From contig CAKTGS010000005.1 of assembly GCA_934561485.1 (NCBI GenBank), positions 1 through 45,811 of the forward strand: 45,811 nucleotides of DNA, read 5' to 3'. This document shows positions 18,654-40,509 of the stretch, piece after piece. The stretch comes from an uncultured Faecalibacterium sp. Its GTDB lineage: Bacteria; Bacillota; Clostridia; Oscillospirales; Ruminococcaceae. The translations under genes and the position numbers were made by a program. Under the pieces are notes generated by a model. It made no database searches. It was not told the DNA's origin and saw nothing but the letters and a program-made list of their open reading frames with translations. Each line of letters starts with the position of its first letter. The stretch's first letter is position 1.

Positions 18654-18669
18654 GAGGAAGCGCCTGACC

Positions 18670-18794
18670 ATTTAAAATGGCCGCCGCTTTGCTCTGGCCA
18701 TTTTCAGCGGAAATTTTATTTTTAACTTGTAAATCAGAAAAATCTGCGGATTTTTCTGATTTACTTTTTCACGGGAGAGGTCGTAACAGCAAAC
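18670..18794 (+). repeat. Two-hairpin structured repeat, copy 1
   Basis: About 125 nt that recur at 39747-39872. Hairpin 1 is 9 bp (18674-18682 with 18696-18704). A conserved AT-rich linker follows, then hairpin 2, a perfect 16-bp stem (18729-18744 with 18749-18764) capped by C(TGCG)G and followed by five T. The sense is taken as + because TGCG is a UNCG-type tetraloop and the T run follows the stem only on this strand. Flanking genes (rplI and glf) both run leftward, so this copy would be transcribed on its own or act against antisense transcription. Confidence 0.8.
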
Positions 18795-19071
18795 AGCATT
18801 TGCTGCTGTCGGCCTGTGACCGTCGCGCAGCGACTTCAAATCGGAGAAGCGAGAAAAAAGCGTTAAGCGCAGCGGCTAGCTTTTTTCCGGTTCGACTTCT
18901 TCTTTGGGATCATCAAGGGCGAGCAGCCCTTGATTCGTGGGTCCAGCGCGTCGAAATCGCTGGTGGTTTTCTGGTTCTCTTTTGCCATCAAAAGAGAACA
19001 TCCCCGGCGGAAATGCTGTTGGCAAAAGCCATCAAAATCTGCTCCACTCGAAAACGCTCTTGCAGGAAGCA
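18795..19071. other. Gene-free stretch with a chain of hairpins
   Basis: With 18575-18794 this completes a 497-base gap between rplI and glf. Successive inverted repeats are: 18854-18861/18879-18886 (8 bp), 18912-18920/18926-18934 (9 bp, loop GAGCA), 18943-18948/18958-18963 (6 bp) and 18974-18984/18989-18999 (11 bp, loop CCAT). No open frame has a ribosome site. It may be a structured RNA, an extended terminator region for glf, or the remains of a dispersed repeat. Confidence 0.5.
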
Positions 19072-20175
19072 TTACTCCAGCTCTTTTGCCGCCACGCTCA
19101 GCGCCGCCTCGATGACCTTGTCCATATCGTAGTACTTGTACTCGCCCAGGCGGCCGCCGAAGATCACATTCTGCTCGGCATCGGCCAGCTTCTTGTACTC
19201 GGCGTACAGGGCGCCGTTCTTTTCGTCATTGACGGGGTAGTACGGCTCATCGCCCTTTTTCCACTCAGCGCTGTACTCGCGGCTGATGACCGTTTTGGGC
19301 TGGGTGCCAAATTCAAAGTGCTTGTGCTCAATGATGCGGGTGTAGGGGGTCTCGGCATCGGTGTAGTTCACCACGGCGTTGCCCTGGTAATTGTCGGTGT
19401 CCAGCACCTCGGTCTCAAAACGGACGCTGCGGTACTGCAGGGCACCCAGCTTGTAATCAAAGTAGGCGTCCACCGGGCCGGTGTAAACCACCTTTTCGGC
19501 CAGAGCGTTCAGTGCTTCACGGTCCGCCAGGTAGTCCACGCCCAGGCGCACCTCCGTGTCGCCCAGCATTTTTTCCACCATGGCAGTGTAGCCGCCGTTG
19601 GGGATGCCCTGATACAGTGCATTGAAGTAGTTGTCATCGTAGGTGAAGCGCACCGGCAGGCGCTTGATGATAAAGGCCGGCAGCTCGGTGCAGGGGCGGC
19701 CCCACTGCTTGCCGGTGTAGCCCTTGACGAGCTTTTCGTAAATGTCGGTGCCCACCAGGCTGATGGCCTGCTCTTCCAGGTTTTGCGGGTCGGTAATGCC
19801 GGCCTCTGCCTTCTGCTGCTCGATCTTGGCCTTGGCCTCGGCCGGGGTCACCACGCCCCACATCTTGTTAAAGGTGTTCATGTTGAAGGGCAGGTTGTAG
19901 ATCTCGCCATGGTAGTTGGCCACCGGGCTGTTGGTATAGCGGTTGAACTCTGCAAACTGGTTCACATACTGCCACACAGCCTTGTTGTTGGTGTGGAAGA
20001 TGTGGGCACCGTAGCGGTGCACATTGATGCCTTCCACAGGCTCGGTGTAAATGTTGCCGGCAATGTGGTTGCGCTTGTCGATGACAAGGCACTTTTTGCC
20101 GGCCTTTTTGGCTTCGTGTGCAAACACGGCACCGTACAGGCCTGCGCCTACGATCAGATAATCATACTGTTTCAT
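19072..20175 (-). CDS. glf: UDP-galactopyranose mutase
   Basis: A 367-residue flavoenzyme that converts UDP-galactopyranose to UDP-galactofuranose, the donor for galactofuranose-containing surface polysaccharides. The FAD-binding N-terminus is YDYLIVGAGLYGAVFAHEAK. HIAGNIYTEPVEGINVHRYGAHIFHT, GKQWGRPCTELP, TYDDNYFNALYQGIPNGGYTAM and FGGRLGEYKYYDMD are family segments. The ATG at 20175 follows AAAGGG; a TTG eight codons earlier touches the gdpP stop. No glycosyltransferases lie next to it, unusual for a gene normally found in polysaccharide clusters. Confidence 0.96.
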   Translation of the reverse strand: MKQYDYLIVGAGLYGAVFAHEAKKAGKKCLVIDKRNHIAGNIYTEPVEGINVHRYGAHIFHTNNKAVWQYVNQFAEFNRYTNSPVANYHGEIYNLPFNMNTFNKMWGVVTPAEAKAKIEQQKAEAGITDPQNLEEQAISLVGTDIYEKLVKGYTGKQWGRPCTELPAFIIKRLPVRFTYDDNYFNALYQGIPNGGYTAMVEKMLGDTEVRLGVDYLADREALNALAEKVVYTGPVDAYFDYKLGALQYRSVRFETEVLDTDNYQGNAVVNYTDAETPYTRIIEHKHFEFGTQPKTVISREYSAEWKKGDEPYYPVNDEKNGALYAEYKKLADAEQNVIFGGRLGEYKYYDMDKVIEAALSVAAKELE

Positions 20176-20195
20176 CTTCAAAACCCTTTCTGTGT

Positions 20196-22175
20196 TCAAG
20201 CATCCTCGACTGCGCTCTTTTTTTGCGATGCCCAGTACTGGTCAATCGCAGACTCAATGCGGGCGCGTGCCGCCTGCGGGGTAATATGTTTGAGCTGTAC
20301 CGCCGCCATGGTCTGATGGCCGCCGCCGCCCATGGATTCCATAATGATCTGTACGTTCACAGCGCCCAGGCTGCGGGCCGAGATATTCACCCCGGTGCCC
20401 ACCTGTACCGCCACAAAGCTGGCATCCACGTTCTGAATGGTCAGCAGGTCGTTGGCAGCCTGCGCCACCGCCACCCGGGCTTCGGGTGCCACCTCACTGC
20501 CCACCGAAATGGCACAGTTCTTGTACATCTGTGCCGCTTCCACCAGGGCCGCCTTGGCATTGTACTCCACCATGGTCACATCAAACAGCTGGCGCACCCG
20601 CTCCGTCTCGGCACCGTAGCGGCGCAGAGCTGCCGCCGCTTCAAAGGTGCGCACACCGGTATGCAGGGTAAAATCGCGGGTATCCAGCATAATGCCGGAC
20701 AGCAGGCCCTCGGCCTCCACGCGGTTGGGCTTGTCATCCCGCTCACCCACGTACTGCAAAAGCTCGGTGACCAGCTCGCTGGCCGAAGAGGAATACGGCT
20801 CGTGGCAGACCAGCGCCGGGTTCTCGATGTACCCCACGCCCTTGCGGTGATGGTCAATGACAGCCACCTTGCCACATTTTTCCAGAATGTCCTTGCTTTC
20901 CACCAGGCCTACCTGGTATGTATCCACTACGATGCACAGCGTCCGTTTGGAGATGATGGGCAGTGCATCCTTCGGGTCAATAAAATCATCCTTCTGGCCC
21001 GCTTTGCACAAAGCATCGATCAGGCTGCCCGCCAGGGTGGCGTCCCGCCGGACGGCGATCACTGCCGGAACATCGCAGATCTTGCAAATGCGCAGTACAC
21101 CCTCGGCAGAGCCAATGGCGTCCAGATCGCTCATGCGGTGACCCATGATGACCACATGGTCCGCTTCCTTGATCAGCTTGACCAGCTGATCCGCCACGAT
21201 GCGGCTGCGCACCTTGCTGCGCTTTTCCACGCCGTGGCTCACACCGCCGTAAAAGGTAAAGCCGTCCGGCGTCATTTCGGCCGCCTGGTCACCGCCGCGC
21301 CCCTGCGCCATATCCAGCGCCTGCACGGCCATATCCTGGGCTTCCCGCAGGGTCTTGGCTCCGCGCCCGATGCCGATGGACAGCGACAGATTCACGCTGG
21401 GGTCCAAGGAACGGATCTTGTCCAGCACATCGTAGCCGCGTTTGGCAAACTGCTCCAGCTGGCGCTCTTCCACCACAGCAATGTAGCGGCCGCTGGCCAC
21501 ACGGCGCAGAAAGCCGCTGCCCCGGCCGATCATATCTTCCAGAATGCGGTTGATGCCCTCCAGCAGGCGGGCACGCTCGCTGTCCAGCATGTCGCCGAAC
21601 ACATCATCGTAGCCGTCCACCAGGAACACCAGGTACCCCGGGCGGCTGGCCTTATACTCCGCTTCCACCCGGCGCAGCGCAGTCTCTTCGTTCAGCACCA
21701 GCAGGGTCATGCTCTCGGCATTGCCGGGCACCGTGGAGCTGTGCACGCTCCAGGCACCCTCTGCCAGGGTCAGCAGCTGGCCCGCCTGGGTGCGGCACTG
21801 CTGCAGGTCCAGCCCGGGCAGCACCTTTTGCACCCGGCTGGTCAGCAGGTCGGTGCCGCCCAGAATGCGGGTGCGGAACTGCGCGTTGTACCACAGCACC
21901 GTCTCGCCGGAAAGCATGGCCGCCGGCTGCGAGAGCGGTTCCAGGCTGAATTTTGTTTTGGATTTTTCAAAGGTTCCGCCGCACATCCAGCGAGCCACCC
22001 AGCGGCGCAGCCGATAGCGGAACGCCGCCATGCAGATGCCCCACGCCACCACCAGTGCCAGCAGCACCGGCCAGATGCTGGGCCGCTGGATCAGCAGGAC
22101 CAGCGTGAGCAGGGCGCAAAGCACCGCCAGCGCTGCGGTCAGCATCTCCATGGTCCATCTTGGTTTCTGTTTCAT
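20196..22175 (-). CDS. gdpP: Cyclic-di-AMP phosphodiesterase GdpP
   Basis: A 659-residue membrane enzyme that hydrolyses c-di-AMP to pApA and so controls osmotic balance and wall stress responses. Two membrane helices lie near residues 9-52. A PAS-like region follows, then a degenerate GGDEF-like domain (GYLVFLVDGYDDVFGDM...SIGIGRGAKTLREAQDMA). The catalytic DHH part has GHRMSDLDAIGSAEG, CIVVDTYQ and VAVIDHHRKG, and the DHHA1 part ends with MESMGGGGHQTMAAVQL. AGGAGG precedes the ATG. It lies between RNase J and glf in one transcript; gdpP commonly sits beside rplI/dnaB in Firmicutes, and here it is one gene away. Confidence 0.96.
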   Translation of the reverse strand: MKQKPRWTMEMLTAALAVLCALLTLVLLIQRPSIWPVLLALVVAWGICMAAFRYRLRRWVARWMCGGTFEKSKTKFSLEPLSQPAAMLSGETVLWYNAQFRTRILGGTDLLTSRVQKVLPGLDLQQCRTQAGQLLTLAEGAWSVHSSTVPGNAESMTLLVLNEETALRRVEAEYKASRPGYLVFLVDGYDDVFGDMLDSERARLLEGINRILEDMIGRGSGFLRRVASGRYIAVVEERQLEQFAKRGYDVLDKIRSLDPSVNLSLSIGIGRGAKTLREAQDMAVQALDMAQGRGGDQAAEMTPDGFTFYGGVSHGVEKRSKVRSRIVADQLVKLIKEADHVVIMGHRMSDLDAIGSAEGVLRICKICDVPAVIAVRRDATLAGSLIDALCKAGQKDDFIDPKDALPIISKRTLCIVVDTYQVGLVESKDILEKCGKVAVIDHHRKGVGYIENPALVCHEPYSSSASELVTELLQYVGERDDKPNRVEAEGLLSGIMLDTRDFTLHTGVRTFEAAAALRRYGAETERVRQLFDVTMVEYNAKAALVEAAQMYKNCAISVGSEVAPEARVAVAQAANDLLTIQNVDASFVAVQVGTGVNISARSLGAVNVQIIMESMGGGGHQTMAAVQLKHITPQAARARIESAIDQYWASQKKSAVEDA

Positions 22176-37817: not shown

Positions 37818-37852
37818 AGCCCCGGCGGCATTTGGCCCGCCGGGGCTTTTTT
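37818..37852 (+). terminator. Intrinsic terminator between glgP and the GH13 gene
   Basis: An 11-bp perfect GC-rich stem (37818-37828 with 37837-37847) is followed by six T (37847-37852). Its end is only 4 nt from the Shine-Dalgarno of the next gene, so it may also act as an attenuator. Confidence 0.9.
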
Positions 37853-37870
37853 GAGAAAGGACGACCGCTT

Positions 37871-39727
37871 TTGTCTTGTCTGTTCAACAGCTATGATCCC
37901 TATTTCAAGCAGCCCTTTGGTGCTGTGCGTGCCGGGCAGACCGTGCACCTGACCCTGTGCATTCCGGAAGAGCTGGGCTATGTGGACCCGCACCTGGTTC
38001 TCCAAAAGGAGGGCAAGTACGATGTGCCCGTGCACTACCGCATGAAGTTTGACGGCCAGACGCCCAAACAGAACCACTTTTCGGTGGACGTGACCCTGGG
38101 CGATGTGGGCCTGTACTTCTATTATTTTGACCTGTACACCGACTTCCGCCGCATTGTGCGCGGGCCGGACAACTGCGGCGTGGTGAGCTGGCAGGATGGT
38201 GAAAAGTGGCAGATCACCGTATACGATGCCGGGTTCCAGTCCCCCGAGTGCATCAAGGGCAAGGTGTTCTACCAGATCTTCCCGGACCGCTTCTGCGAAG
38301 GCATCGAGAACAAGCCCATGCCTTTTCCGGACCGGCTGTACCAGGCCGACAAGCACGCTGAGCCCTTCTGGCAGCCCAACGAGACCGGCGGCCACCTGAA
38401 CGAGGACTATTTTGGCGGCGATCTGGAGGGCATCCGCATCAAGCTGCCCTACCTGCACGAGATGGGCGTGGACTACATTTATCTCAACCCCATCTTCGAG
38501 GCCCACTCCAACCACCGCTACAACACCGCCGACTACCTCAACGTGGACCCGCTGCTGGGCACCAACGAGGAATTTGAGGTGCTGTGCAAAGAAGCCGCCA
38601 AGTACGGCATTGGCCTTGTGCTGGACGGTGTATTCAGCCACACCGGCTCCGACAGCCGCTACTTCAACCGCGAGGGCCGCTACGGCGAGGGCGGTGCCTA
38701 CCGCGACCCCAATTCCCCCTACCGCAGCTGGTACGACTTTGACCCCAAGTATAAGGGCGGCTACCGCAGCTGGTGGGGCTTCGAGACCCTGCCGGAGGTC
38801 AACGAAGAGAATCCCTCCTATGTGGAATTCATCACCGGCGAAGGCGGCGTGATCGACACCTGGCTGCGCCGCGGTGCCGCCGGCTTCCGGCTGGATGTGG
38901 CCGATGAGCTACCGGACGACTTCATTGAAAAGATCCGCGCTGCCGTCAAGCGGGTCAGCCCGGAAAAGTTCCTGCTGGGTGAAGTGTGGGAGGACGCTAC
39001 CACCAAATACGGCTTTGGCCAGCGCCGCACCTACCTACTGGGCAAAGGGCTGGACAGCGTAATGAACTACCCGTTCAAGAACGCCGTGCTGGATTTTGTC
39101 AAGGGCAAGCCCGCCGACCAGGCCATGGGCGAGATTTTGTCCATCTGCGAGCACTACCCTGCCCCTGCTCTGGACACTGCCCTGAACTTTCTGTCCACCC
39201 ACGACACCGAACGCGCACTGACCGTGATCGCGGACGAACCGGCCAACGGCCGGGGCCGCGAGTGGCAGAGCGGCCGCAGCGTGACCGGCGATGCCTACGA
39301 GGAGGGCATGCTGCGCCTGCGCATGGCCTATGCCATCATCTACACCCTGCCCGGTGTGCCCTGCCTGTACTACGGCGATGAGATTGGAATGCAGGGCTAC
39401 CGCGACCCCTTCAACCGGGCATTCTACTGCTGGGACAGCCACGAAGAGCGCCTGCGCCCGGTGCTTGCCCAGCTGGCCCAGCTGCGCCGCACCTGCGAAG
39501 CCTTCCGCACCGGCGGACTTCGGGTGCTGCGGGCCGAAGGCGGTGTGCTGCACTACCAGCGCGTGGGCGATTTTGAAACTGCCGAGATCATCGTGAACCG
39601 CTCGGAACACATCATTGTGGAGCCGCTGGCCTCCGGCAAGCACACCGAGGTAAACCCCATGGGCTTTACCATTGTGGTGGAAGAAAACGGTCATAATCCG
39701 AACCACAGCTATTACGACATTCAGTGA
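37871..39727 (+). CDS. GH13 alpha-glucan hydrolase (neopullulanase/cyclomaltodextrinase-like)
   Basis: A 618-residue glycoside hydrolase of family 13 that cleaves or rearranges alpha-1,4/1,6-glucans; no signal peptide, so it is cytoplasmic. An N-terminal beta domain (about 1-120) precedes the catalytic barrel, as in neopullulanases. The catalytic residues are Asp342 (GFRLDVADE), Glu371 (LLGEVWEDATTKYG) and Asp445 (FLSTHDTERAL); LDGVFSHTGSDSRYFN and YYGDEIGMQGYRDPFNR are further family blocks. TTG at 37871 is taken as start because AAAGGA lies 9 nt before it; a TTG at 37832 falls inside the terminator stem. Together with glgP it would degrade storage or imported glucans. Exact specificity is uncertain. 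Confidence 0.92.
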   Translation: MSCLFNSYDPYFKQPFGAVRAGQTVHLTLCIPEELGYVDPHLVLQKEGKYDVPVHYRMKFDGQTPKQNHFSVDVTLGDVGLYFYYFDLYTDFRRIVRGPDNCGVVSWQDGEKWQITVYDAGFQSPECIKGKVFYQIFPDRFCEGIENKPMPFPDRLYQADKHAEPFWQPNETGGHLNEDYFGGDLEGIRIKLPYLHEMGVDYIYLNPIFEAHSNHRYNTADYLNVDPLLGTNEEFEVLCKEAAKYGIGLVLDGVFSHTGSDSRYFNREGRYGEGGAYRDPNSPYRSWYDFDPKYKGGYRSWWGFETLPEVNEENPSYVEFITGEGGVIDTWLRRGAAGFRLDVADELPDDFIEKIRAAVKRVSPEKFLLGEVWEDATTKYGFGQRRTYLLGKGLDSVMNYPFKNAVLDFVKGKPADQAMGEILSICEHYPAPALDTALNFLSTHDTERALTVIADEPANGRGREWQSGRSVTGDAYEEGMLRLRMAYAIIYTLPGVPCLYYGDEIGMQGYRDPFNRAFYCWDSHEERLRPVLAQLAQLRRTCEAFRTGGLRVLRAEGGVLHYQRVGDFETAEIIVNRSEHIIVEPLASGKHTEVNPMGFTIVVEENGHNPNHSYYDIQ

Positions 39728-39746
39728 TGCCTGCGGGGCTGTAACG

Positions 39747-39872
39747 ATTTAAAATGCTCTCCGCTTGCGCTCTGAGCATCTATAGTGGAATTTTATTTTT
39801 TATCTGTAAGTCGGGAAGATCTGCGGATCTTCCCGACTTACTTTTTCACGGGGAGGGACGCAACGGCTGACG
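39747..39872 (+). repeat. Two-hairpin structured repeat, copy 2
   Basis: Homologous to 18670-18794 in the same orientation. Hairpin 1 is ATGCTC/GAGCAT (39754-39759 with 39774-39779); hairpin 2 is a perfect 16-bp stem (39806-39821 with 39826-39841) capped by C(TGCG)G and followed by five T. It starts 20 bases after the GH13 stop in the same direction and could end that transcript. The rest of the gap, 39873-40005, holds only a weak CACGG/CCGTG hairpin and AT-rich sequence. Confidence 0.8.
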
Positions 39873-40005
39873 GACCGTTTTTTTCCACACGGCCTTCTTC
39901 CGTGAAAATGCGTTTGTGTCAACTCTGAACGCGGCATTTCTTTCAGGCTTTTTCCCCATTTTAGTCTATATTTTGTTTTCTGCGCAACGTTCCAGTAAAA
40001 AACGC

Positions 40006-40059: not shown

Positions 40060-40509
40060 ATGCAAATCGATCCATTCTTCTGGCTCATCGCCGCCGTGGG
40101 CTTTCTGGTTCTGGAAGCAGCCACGGTCAACATGACCTCTGTATGGTTTGCCATCGGCGCAGCTGCCGCCTTGATCAGCTGCCTGTTCACCGGCTCGTTC
40201 CGGGTACAGGCTGTGATCTTTTTGGTGGTCAGCATCCTGTGCCTGCTGGCATTCCGCCCGCTGGCCGCCCGGCTGCGCACCAAACCTACCGCCACCAACG
40301 GGGACCGTGCCCTGGGCCGGGAAGCCATCGTGCTCACCCCGGTCACCTTCGACACCCCTGGCCGCGTCCGCCTGGACGGCGTGGACTGGAATGCCCGTTG
40401 CGTGACCCCCGGCGATGTTCTGGCACCCGGCAGCCGCTGCCGCGTGACCGAGATCCACAGCACCCTGCTTGTGGTTGAGCCGATCCTGACCGAAAGCCGC
40501 CAGGGCTGA
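40060..40509 (+). CDS. NfeD-like membrane protein
   Basis: A 149-residue protein of the short NfeD type. Two or three hydrophobic helices (PFFWLIAAVGFLVLEAATV, VWFAIGAAAALISCLF, VQAVIFLVVSILCLLAF) are followed by a soluble OB-fold-like domain of about 65 residues (GREAIVLTPVTFDTPGRVRLDG...GDVLAPGSRCRVTEI). NfeD proteins work with the SPFH protein usually encoded beside them, and here that gene follows by 41 nt. They are thought to organise membrane microdomains. AGGAGG precedes the ATG. Confidence 0.92.
   Translation: MQIDPFFWLIAAVGFLVLEAATVNMTSVWFAIGAAAALISCLFTGSFRVQAVIFLVVSILCLLAFRPLAARLRTKPTATNGDRALGREAIVLTPVTFDTPGRVRLDGVDWNARCVTPGDVLAPGSRCRVTEIHSTLLVVEPILTESRQG

Follow-up and report, generated by a model that had tools for sequence, protein, structure and literature searches.

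Our comparative analysis revealed that a 135-nt structured repeat, here called element A, is dispersed in about a hundred copies through each of several Faecalibacterium genomes. Two of these copies lie in the window, the 45,811-nt stretch of DNA from an uncultured Faecalibacterium that was analysed here. Element A combines high copy number with two covarying hairpins, occurs both as single copies and as convergent inverted pairs, and is present at some orthologous sites and missing from others. These features suggest a non-autonomous interspersed repeat that probably acts as a portable intrinsic terminator, similar to the SPRITE repeats of pneumococcus, and we put the probability of this reading at roughly 0.64. 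An earlier sequence-only reading of the window had proposed a dispersed structured family, possibly of terminators; the comparison indeed brought to light a dispersed family, which has a terminator-like hairpin and differs between genomes in presence and absence.

Structure and distribution of element A

The stretch at 18670..18794 had been reported to recur at a second place in the window, and both copies were found (Table 1). The compensated changes described for them are also there. At positions 5, 8, 10 and 13 of the 5′ arm of stem 2, A is replaced by G and the partner T by C on the opposite arm (copy 1, GTAAATCAGAAAAATC/GATTTTTCTGATTTAC at 18729-18764; copy 2, GTAAGTCGGGAAGATC/GATCTTCCCGACTTAC at 39806-39841), and two pairs of the first stem change together, turning TGGCC/GGCCA of hairpin 1 into TGCTC/GAGCA. 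The segments said to be conserved, C(TGCG)G, TTTTT and CACGGG, are identical between the copies. The two copies and their compensated changes are real and go beyond chance; the pattern from cap to CACGGG matches twice in the window and in none of 100 shuffles, and the RNA folding z-scores of the copies are -6.7 and -7.7. The opposite strand reaches nearly the same values (-6.8 and -7.8), and the fold therefore does not tell which strand is the RNA.

Each unit of element A begins with ACGATTT-AAA and continues with hairpin 1, the motif AGCGGAAA, an AT-rich linker, the 16-bp stem capped by C(TGCG)G, the T run and CACGGG. The consensus of hairpin 1 has five outer pairs, a three-by-three internal loop and two inner pairs. 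Both copies in the window have the shape of a Rho-independent terminator, a hairpin with G-C pairs followed directly by a T run. In the minimum-energy fold of the + strand of copy 2, stem 2 forms and hairpin 1 does not, TCCGC pairing with GTGGA instead; the support for hairpin 1 therefore comes from covariation and not from that fold.

Table 1. Element A, module C and neighbouring genes in the window.
Feature	Position	Strand	Basis and remarks
Element A, copy 1	18667..18801	+	135-nt covariance-model match, 154.2 bits; in the rplI-upstream gap
Hairpin 1, copy 1 (5-bp outer helix, three-by-three internal loop, 2-bp inner helix)	18678..18700	+	Consensus structure and pair counts in 43 copies; sequence
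Stem 2, copy 1 (16-bp perfect palindrome, TGCG loop)	18729..18764	+	Sequence, pair counts
T run and CACGGG segment, copy 1	18765..18775	+	Sequence
Element A, copy 2	39744..39878	+	Covariance-model match, 130.2 bits; 16 nt 3′ of the alpha-amylase-family stop
Hairpin 1, copy 2	39755..39778	+	By alignment; absent from the + strand minimum-energy fold
Stem 2, copy 2 (16-bp perfect palindrome, TGCG loop; terminator-like with T run)	39806..39841	+	
T run and CACGGG segment, copy 2	39842..39852	+	Sequence
Module C (separate, hairpin-rich dispersed repeat of about 165 bp)	18837..19001	+	Sequence comparison
Extra DNA at site 1 (element A, module C and connecting repeats)	18663..19071	.	About 6 nt instead in genomes G019 and G030
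rplI, ribosomal protein L9 gene	18119..18574	-	Pfam PF01281, PF03948; copy 1 upstream and antisense
UDP-galactopyranose mutase-family gene, stop facing site 1	19072..20199	-	Pfam PF03275
Alpha-amylase-family gene, 5′ of copy 2	37832..39727	+	Pfam PF00128
NfeD-family gene, downstream of copy 2	40060..40509	+	Pfam PF01957

The pairing pattern extends across the family. In 43 aligned copies of the 47 listed, 97.8% of cells were paired and 19 of 23 pairs had double changes, which none of 500 shuffles reached; the covariation score was 0.655 compared with 0.174 in shuffles, and three of the five pairs in the outer helix of hairpin 1 had double changes. For stem counts, 129 model matches yielded 103 unique full-length rows, of which 100 could be parsed. 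In these, 1541 of 1600 stem 2 positions are Watson-Crick, stem 2 is perfect over 13 bp in 72 copies, and a T run of at least four stands behind it in 91. The loop reads TGCG in 91 of the 100 and the cap CTGCGG in 90; TTCG, TACG and TCCG loops were absent from the variants listed for these copies, though the parser would have accepted them. The loop thus represents one conserved sequence rather than the UNCG class, which leaves the earlier argument from stable UNCG tetraloops weak. CACGGG, hairpin 1 and AGCGGA are conserved beyond the needs of a terminator, and conservation is high in the internal loop of hairpin 1, the AGCGGA motif and the CTGCGG cap. Pairing of the hairpin 1 loop (TCCGC) with AGCGG was considered as a further structural feature and discarded, since it occurs in the minimum-energy fold of copy 2 but shows no covariation.

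We built a covariance model of element A and ran it on 31 Faecalibacterium genomes. Eight of them are rich in the element, with 77 to at least 107 matches each (six genomes reach at least 106-107, G029 has 92 and G003 has 77; up to 107 candidates were scored per genome, and all counts are lower bounds, except perhaps those of G003 and G029), compared with 0-3 in the other 23, where five genomes have 1-3 matches and 18 have none. The top scores reach 156.6 bits over 135 nt. With 40 candidates scored, BLAST gave at least 42-49 matches per genome in four members of the genus. The 45 kb of the window have mean identities of 83.5-85.6% to the corresponding blocks of eight Faecalibacterium genomes, from which we assign it to this genus. 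A strict pattern search of a species-level genome collection returned eight stretches, six of them Faecalibacterium loci; the other two resemble the pattern only and are read as chance. Among 197 genomes drawn from the taxonomic family, searched with stricter filters and with the best 16 candidates scored, three had a match, two of them genus members and one weak. As far as searched, element A is thus a dispersed repeat confined almost entirely to part of Faecalibacterium. A repeat present about a hundred times per genome in a major group of human gut commensals affects annotation, operon prediction and the design of genetic tools.

The two database comparisons suggested by the earlier reading went different ways: the covariance model recovered a dispersed Faecalibacterium family, and the comparison with Rfam gave no match. 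At gathering and at lax thresholds Rfam gave no family match for element A, the lax matches falling far under the cut-offs, and a comparison of five loci yielded tRNA matches only. Among the titles and abstract openings listed, we found no description of the family in the literature; it may stand unnamed in the supplements of a 2021 survey of structured RNAs in microbiomes (PMC8040213). The word Faecalibacterium is absent from the main text of PMC2267715 and of PMC3733652. Apparently, the repeat has so far remained unnamed.

A search of the virus collection with the strict pattern gave 0 matches. Sixteen unannotated human-fecal records labelled ‘Bacteriophage sp.’ (MT836242-MT839834) carry element A, representing either bacterial DNA or phage carriage. 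Among the matches listed for genome G031, the copies appear unevenly spread and denser at about 2.3-2.8 Mb, which is an impression only.

Placement relative to genes and at orthologous sites

Gene contexts were determined with calls from a hexamer model made in this analysis, for 87 unique copies in loci chosen as strong matches, a biased set in which orthologous copies were counted separately. Seven copies overlap called ORFs and 80 are intergenic; in seven others the 3′ side lacks a gene. Element A has a preference for gene 3′ ends, and its 5′ end often abuts the stop codon. The gene on the 5′ side lies on the same strand in 54 of the 80 intergenic copies, and in 35 of these 54 the element starts between -35 and +33 nt from the stop, five copies overlapping it. 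Where the 5′-side gene lies on the opposite strand, the start of the element is within 33 nt of the gene start in 9 of 26 cases. Compared with gaps of at least 60 bp from the window and the fetched blocks, a background with some redundancy between genomes, the copies are over-represented in convergent gaps (31 of 73 copies versus 100 of 523 gaps, p=3e-5) and under-represented in divergent ones (4 of 73 versus 96 of 523, p=0.004). In tandem gaps, 16 copies run with the genes and 22 against them (p=0.42), indicating no preference for polarity; copy 1, too, lies antisense to its operon. Terminator-compatible copies have a higher G+C content in their stems (6.8 versus 5.5 of 14, p=0.007).

In the portable-terminator reading, the 16-bp hairpin and T run of a copy that lies behind a gene and points the same way would end the transcript of that gene, and a convergent pair would serve two converging genes. 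Such a copy could back up or take over from a native terminator, then sometimes lost, and selection would remove broken stems where termination matters. Use by the host as a terminator is favoured by the higher G+C content of terminator-compatible stems and by the landing of IS200-type elements in the tails of element A (see below).

Orthologous sites differ between genomes: some carry the element, and others are empty or have an ordinary terminator or another repeat instead. Site 1, the position of copy 1, is empty in G019 and G030, contains element A with a short tail and no module C in G031, and contains both in the window and in G002. In G001, G003, G004 and G029 it is filled by different sequence, much of it repeat-like. 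The rplI-upstream gap shows differing repeat-like sequence in several relatives (loci L083, L084, L086 and L088) and is likely a hot spot for unrelated interspersed repeats. At site 2, the position of copy 2, element A is common to the window, G001 and G019, and G031 has another copy of it; among genomes lacking it there, G002, G003 and G029 have ordinary T-tailed hairpins and G004 and G030 a weaker hairpin. Across the 45-kb blocks, 11 occupied intervals represent seven distinct sites of element A, a weak match in G030 (3515) being left out. By eye, a T-tailed hairpin stands in the interval of at least one relative at four of the seven sites (site 2, P44, 6206 and P28).

All three genomes that carry element A at site 6206 (G003, G029 and G031) have, directly behind it, a hairpin whose tail contains T, so the element was added at this site and not exchanged. 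A hairpin of the native terminator type also precedes element A in G017 and in locus L218, and these hairpins kept beside the element argue against general replacement. At other sites of element A, such as site 2 and P28, the native T-tailed hairpin is absent. Furthermore, decayed copies at one site in G001, G019 and G004 retain stem 2 and the T run and have lost hairpin 1. The idea that stem 2 itself derives from a native terminator was rejected, as no resemblance is visible by eye at site 2 or in the P28 pair.

Two further details concern gene ends. In G017, a genome with only three matches to the covariance model, locus L119 (1373-1637) has one convergent pair after a gene, and the gene's own terminator-like hairpin stands directly before the truncated left copy. 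At site 6206 in G003, G029 and G031, the TGA stop of the gene seems to use the first base of the element (...TG|ACGATTT), so that the start of element A may complete the stop codon.

The single clean empty site (G019/G030) showed no target-site duplication, the other sites not being clean. Likewise, there was no clean recent insertion in 251-kb stretches of G003, G029, G031 and G002 (20 clusters), the comparison covering clusters that could be placed by syntenic flanks, and all three sites placed in G003 are common to G029. The lack of a duplication and the three common sites indicate that movement of the element is slow or over.

Origin of the paired stem changes

The compensated changes had been taken to point to selection on an RNA fold. 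Real as the covariation is, it provides no clean proof of RNA selection. Selection on RNA of the + strand should leave more G·U than A·C mismatches, an expectation that the 17 G·T and 20 A·C mismatches in stems of the 100 parsed copies do not bear out. Control hairpins from the same DNA gave 25 G·T versus 13 A·C where at least four of the six bases behind them are T, 10 versus 7 with at least five T, and 13 versus 18 with at most two. The ratio for element A does not differ significantly from that of controls with at least four T (p=0.11), and given this p-value and the small set of wobble pairs the test is no more than suggestive. Over 14 bp, the stem is perfect in 24 of 26 antisense copies, compared with 40 of 52 parsed terminator-compatible copies (p=0.12, with three unparsed terminator-compatible rows left out); perfection of the stem does not track terminator-compatible placement.

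Comparison of orthologous copies revealed changes in stems, loops and pair centres. At site 2, the copies of G001 and the window are distinguished by two stem pairs, each changed on both arms, and G019 has an A·C mismatch. In the convergent pair at P28, the centre is inverted in G031 relative to G003, with G029 identical to G003, and one stem has identical arms and a reversed 4-nt loop. Inversion of the loop, or spacer, together with homogenisation of the arms is described as an outcome of template switching in the account of PMC8604942, and according to that of PMC8794818 template switching can maintain stems. The flipped loop with unchanged arms and the inverted pair centre therefore indicate DNA template switching, and we infer that correction at the DNA level contributes to the matching of the stems. 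Given the lack of a wobble preference, the equally perfect antisense stems, the flipped loop and the inverted centre, the claim that the compensated changes reflect selection on an RNA fold is not established.

Template switching when DNA is replicated may be largely what makes the two arms of stem 2 change together. A more far-reaching version of the terminator reading, which we put forward only tentatively, is that element A is a family of mobile terminators, that template switching at replication both creates their transcription-ending palindromes and keeps repairing them, and that its copies back up or replace native terminators in part of the genus, the strong covariation arising at the DNA level. 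If true, such a template-switch-repaired mobile terminator would show in nature how covariation statistics can exaggerate RNA selection. Element A provides many natural replicates for distinguishing RNA selection from DNA template switching as the source of paired stem changes, since its orthologous copies, flipped loops and antisense copies are all open to comparison.

Mobility, related repeats and alternative explanations

Transposase genes were searched in all 31 genomes, and PF01797 matches occur in six of the eight A-rich genomes compared with five of the 23 others, a skew that is not corrected for kinship. We take the PF01797 loci to be of the IS200 type. The search identified no mobilising enzyme for element A, as PF01797 is absent from the A-rich genomes G019 and G029, and IS110 has matches in two and is absent from six of the eight. 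Of 12 PF01797 loci scanned in A-rich genomes, three (L044, L046 and L218) have a strong copy of element A within about 300 nt of the transposase, one (L219) has a weak copy nearby and eight have none. By eye, L218 and L219 have the left junction of the insertion element after TTCA, behind a T-tailed hairpin, as does L040 with a shorter T stretch, and an IS200-type element sits inside the tail of element A itself in L044 (about 1338) and L046 (about 1941). The IS200-type element may use terminator tails as targets. Its ends are, by eye, unlike element A and its junctions fit landing on tails; we therefore read element A as a landing site and dropped IS200 as its source. A match to a DNA transposon end, named beforehand as a finding that would speak against an RNA element, was likewise not seen in these neighbours. 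The data leave room for a Y1-driven origin of element A. No terminal inverted repeats were seen in a single copy; convergent pairs end in ACGATTT-like...AAATCGT.

The main competitor to a portable terminator is a purely selfish miniature element, whose hairpins would be needed only for its own mobility, through single-strand or transposase recognition, and whose placement at 3′ ends would result from the selective removal of copies in promoters and operons. In the account of PMC3049150, the pneumococcal BOX, RUP, SPRITE and IS elements are likewise reported to be enriched between convergent genes. Stems that are perfect whatever the orientation, the inverted pairs and nested repeats common among copies of element A, and the native hairpins persisting beside it at some sites would also fit. 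We nevertheless regard this explanation as unlikely, because the 5′ ends abutting stop codons (35 of 54), the absence of the native hairpin at site 2 and P28, the decayed copies reduced to the stem and the difference in G+C content exceed passive tolerance; in addition, the PF01797 and IS110 searches of the eight A-rich genomes yielded no enzyme for such mobility.

Among known systems, SPRITE as described in PMC3049150 is closest to element A, a likeness in kind only and without sequence comparison. Both are interspersed repeats with a long duplex (18 bp in SPRITE, 16 bp in element A) followed by a U-rich or T tract, both are enriched between convergent genes, and a target-site duplication is established for neither in that account or in our data. 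Element A differs in its second covarying hairpin, its conserved CACGGG tail, its convergent pairs (one with an inverted centre) and its host, and its 77 to at least 107 copies compare with 30 SPRITE copies in the genome studied there (PMC3049150). The pneumococcal BOX elements are likewise modular and structured and exceed 100 copies (125), but carry terminal inverted repeats and target-site duplications, the latter not seen for element A; the same account gives them a lower transposition rate than IS elements (PMC3049150). REP sequences and BIMEs with their RAYT transposases resemble element A as extragenic palindromes that occur singly or as dimers, but as described in PMC3733652 REPs are 20-40 bp long, with GTAG or CGTC tags and stems of 5-13 bp that often contain GT pairs. 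Element A, in contrast, is about 135 bp long and has a 16-bp stem without G·T excess; no RAYT was identified, and by eye no unpaired GTAG or CGTC tag stands next to either stem of the 135-nt consensus. By size and tag, it does not appear to be a member of the REP/RAYT group. Ordinary Rho-independent terminators share with element A the hairpin and T run downstream of stop codons and take its place at some orthologous sites, whereas the copies of element A form a repeat family and share a long conserved body.

We consider it improbable, more so than a selfish origin, that element A is a regulatory RNA in which hairpin 1 and the linker form a shared 3′-UTR or antisense motif bound by a protein or small RNA, with copies kept for regulation. 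The many copies would supply unrelated genes with a common 3′ UTR, and both the double changes in three of five outer pairs of hairpin 1 and the strong conservation of internal loop, AGCGGA and CTGCGG cap agree with such a role. However, the element is antisense about as often as sense in tandem contexts (22 versus 16), is missing at orthologous sites in several relatives and nearly or wholly absent, with 0-3 matches, from 23 of the 31 genus genomes, its wobble pattern is symmetric, and the loop-to-AGCGG pairing used in the copy 2 fold lacks covariation. Finally, although a 16-bp hairpin with a T run is the normal shape of an intrinsic terminator, independent ordinary terminators are most unlikely to have converged on a similarity that spans 135 nt, includes hairpin 1, linker and CACGGG and scores up to 156.6 bits, with the orthologous site empty in two relatives.

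Module C, the neighbour of copy 1, has a distribution of its own. It is also dispersed in G006 and G015, in which BLAST and the covariance model found no element A, and its stems in relatives lie around ACAAAAAATCC, ATTAAGGGC and GTTCTCTTTTG.
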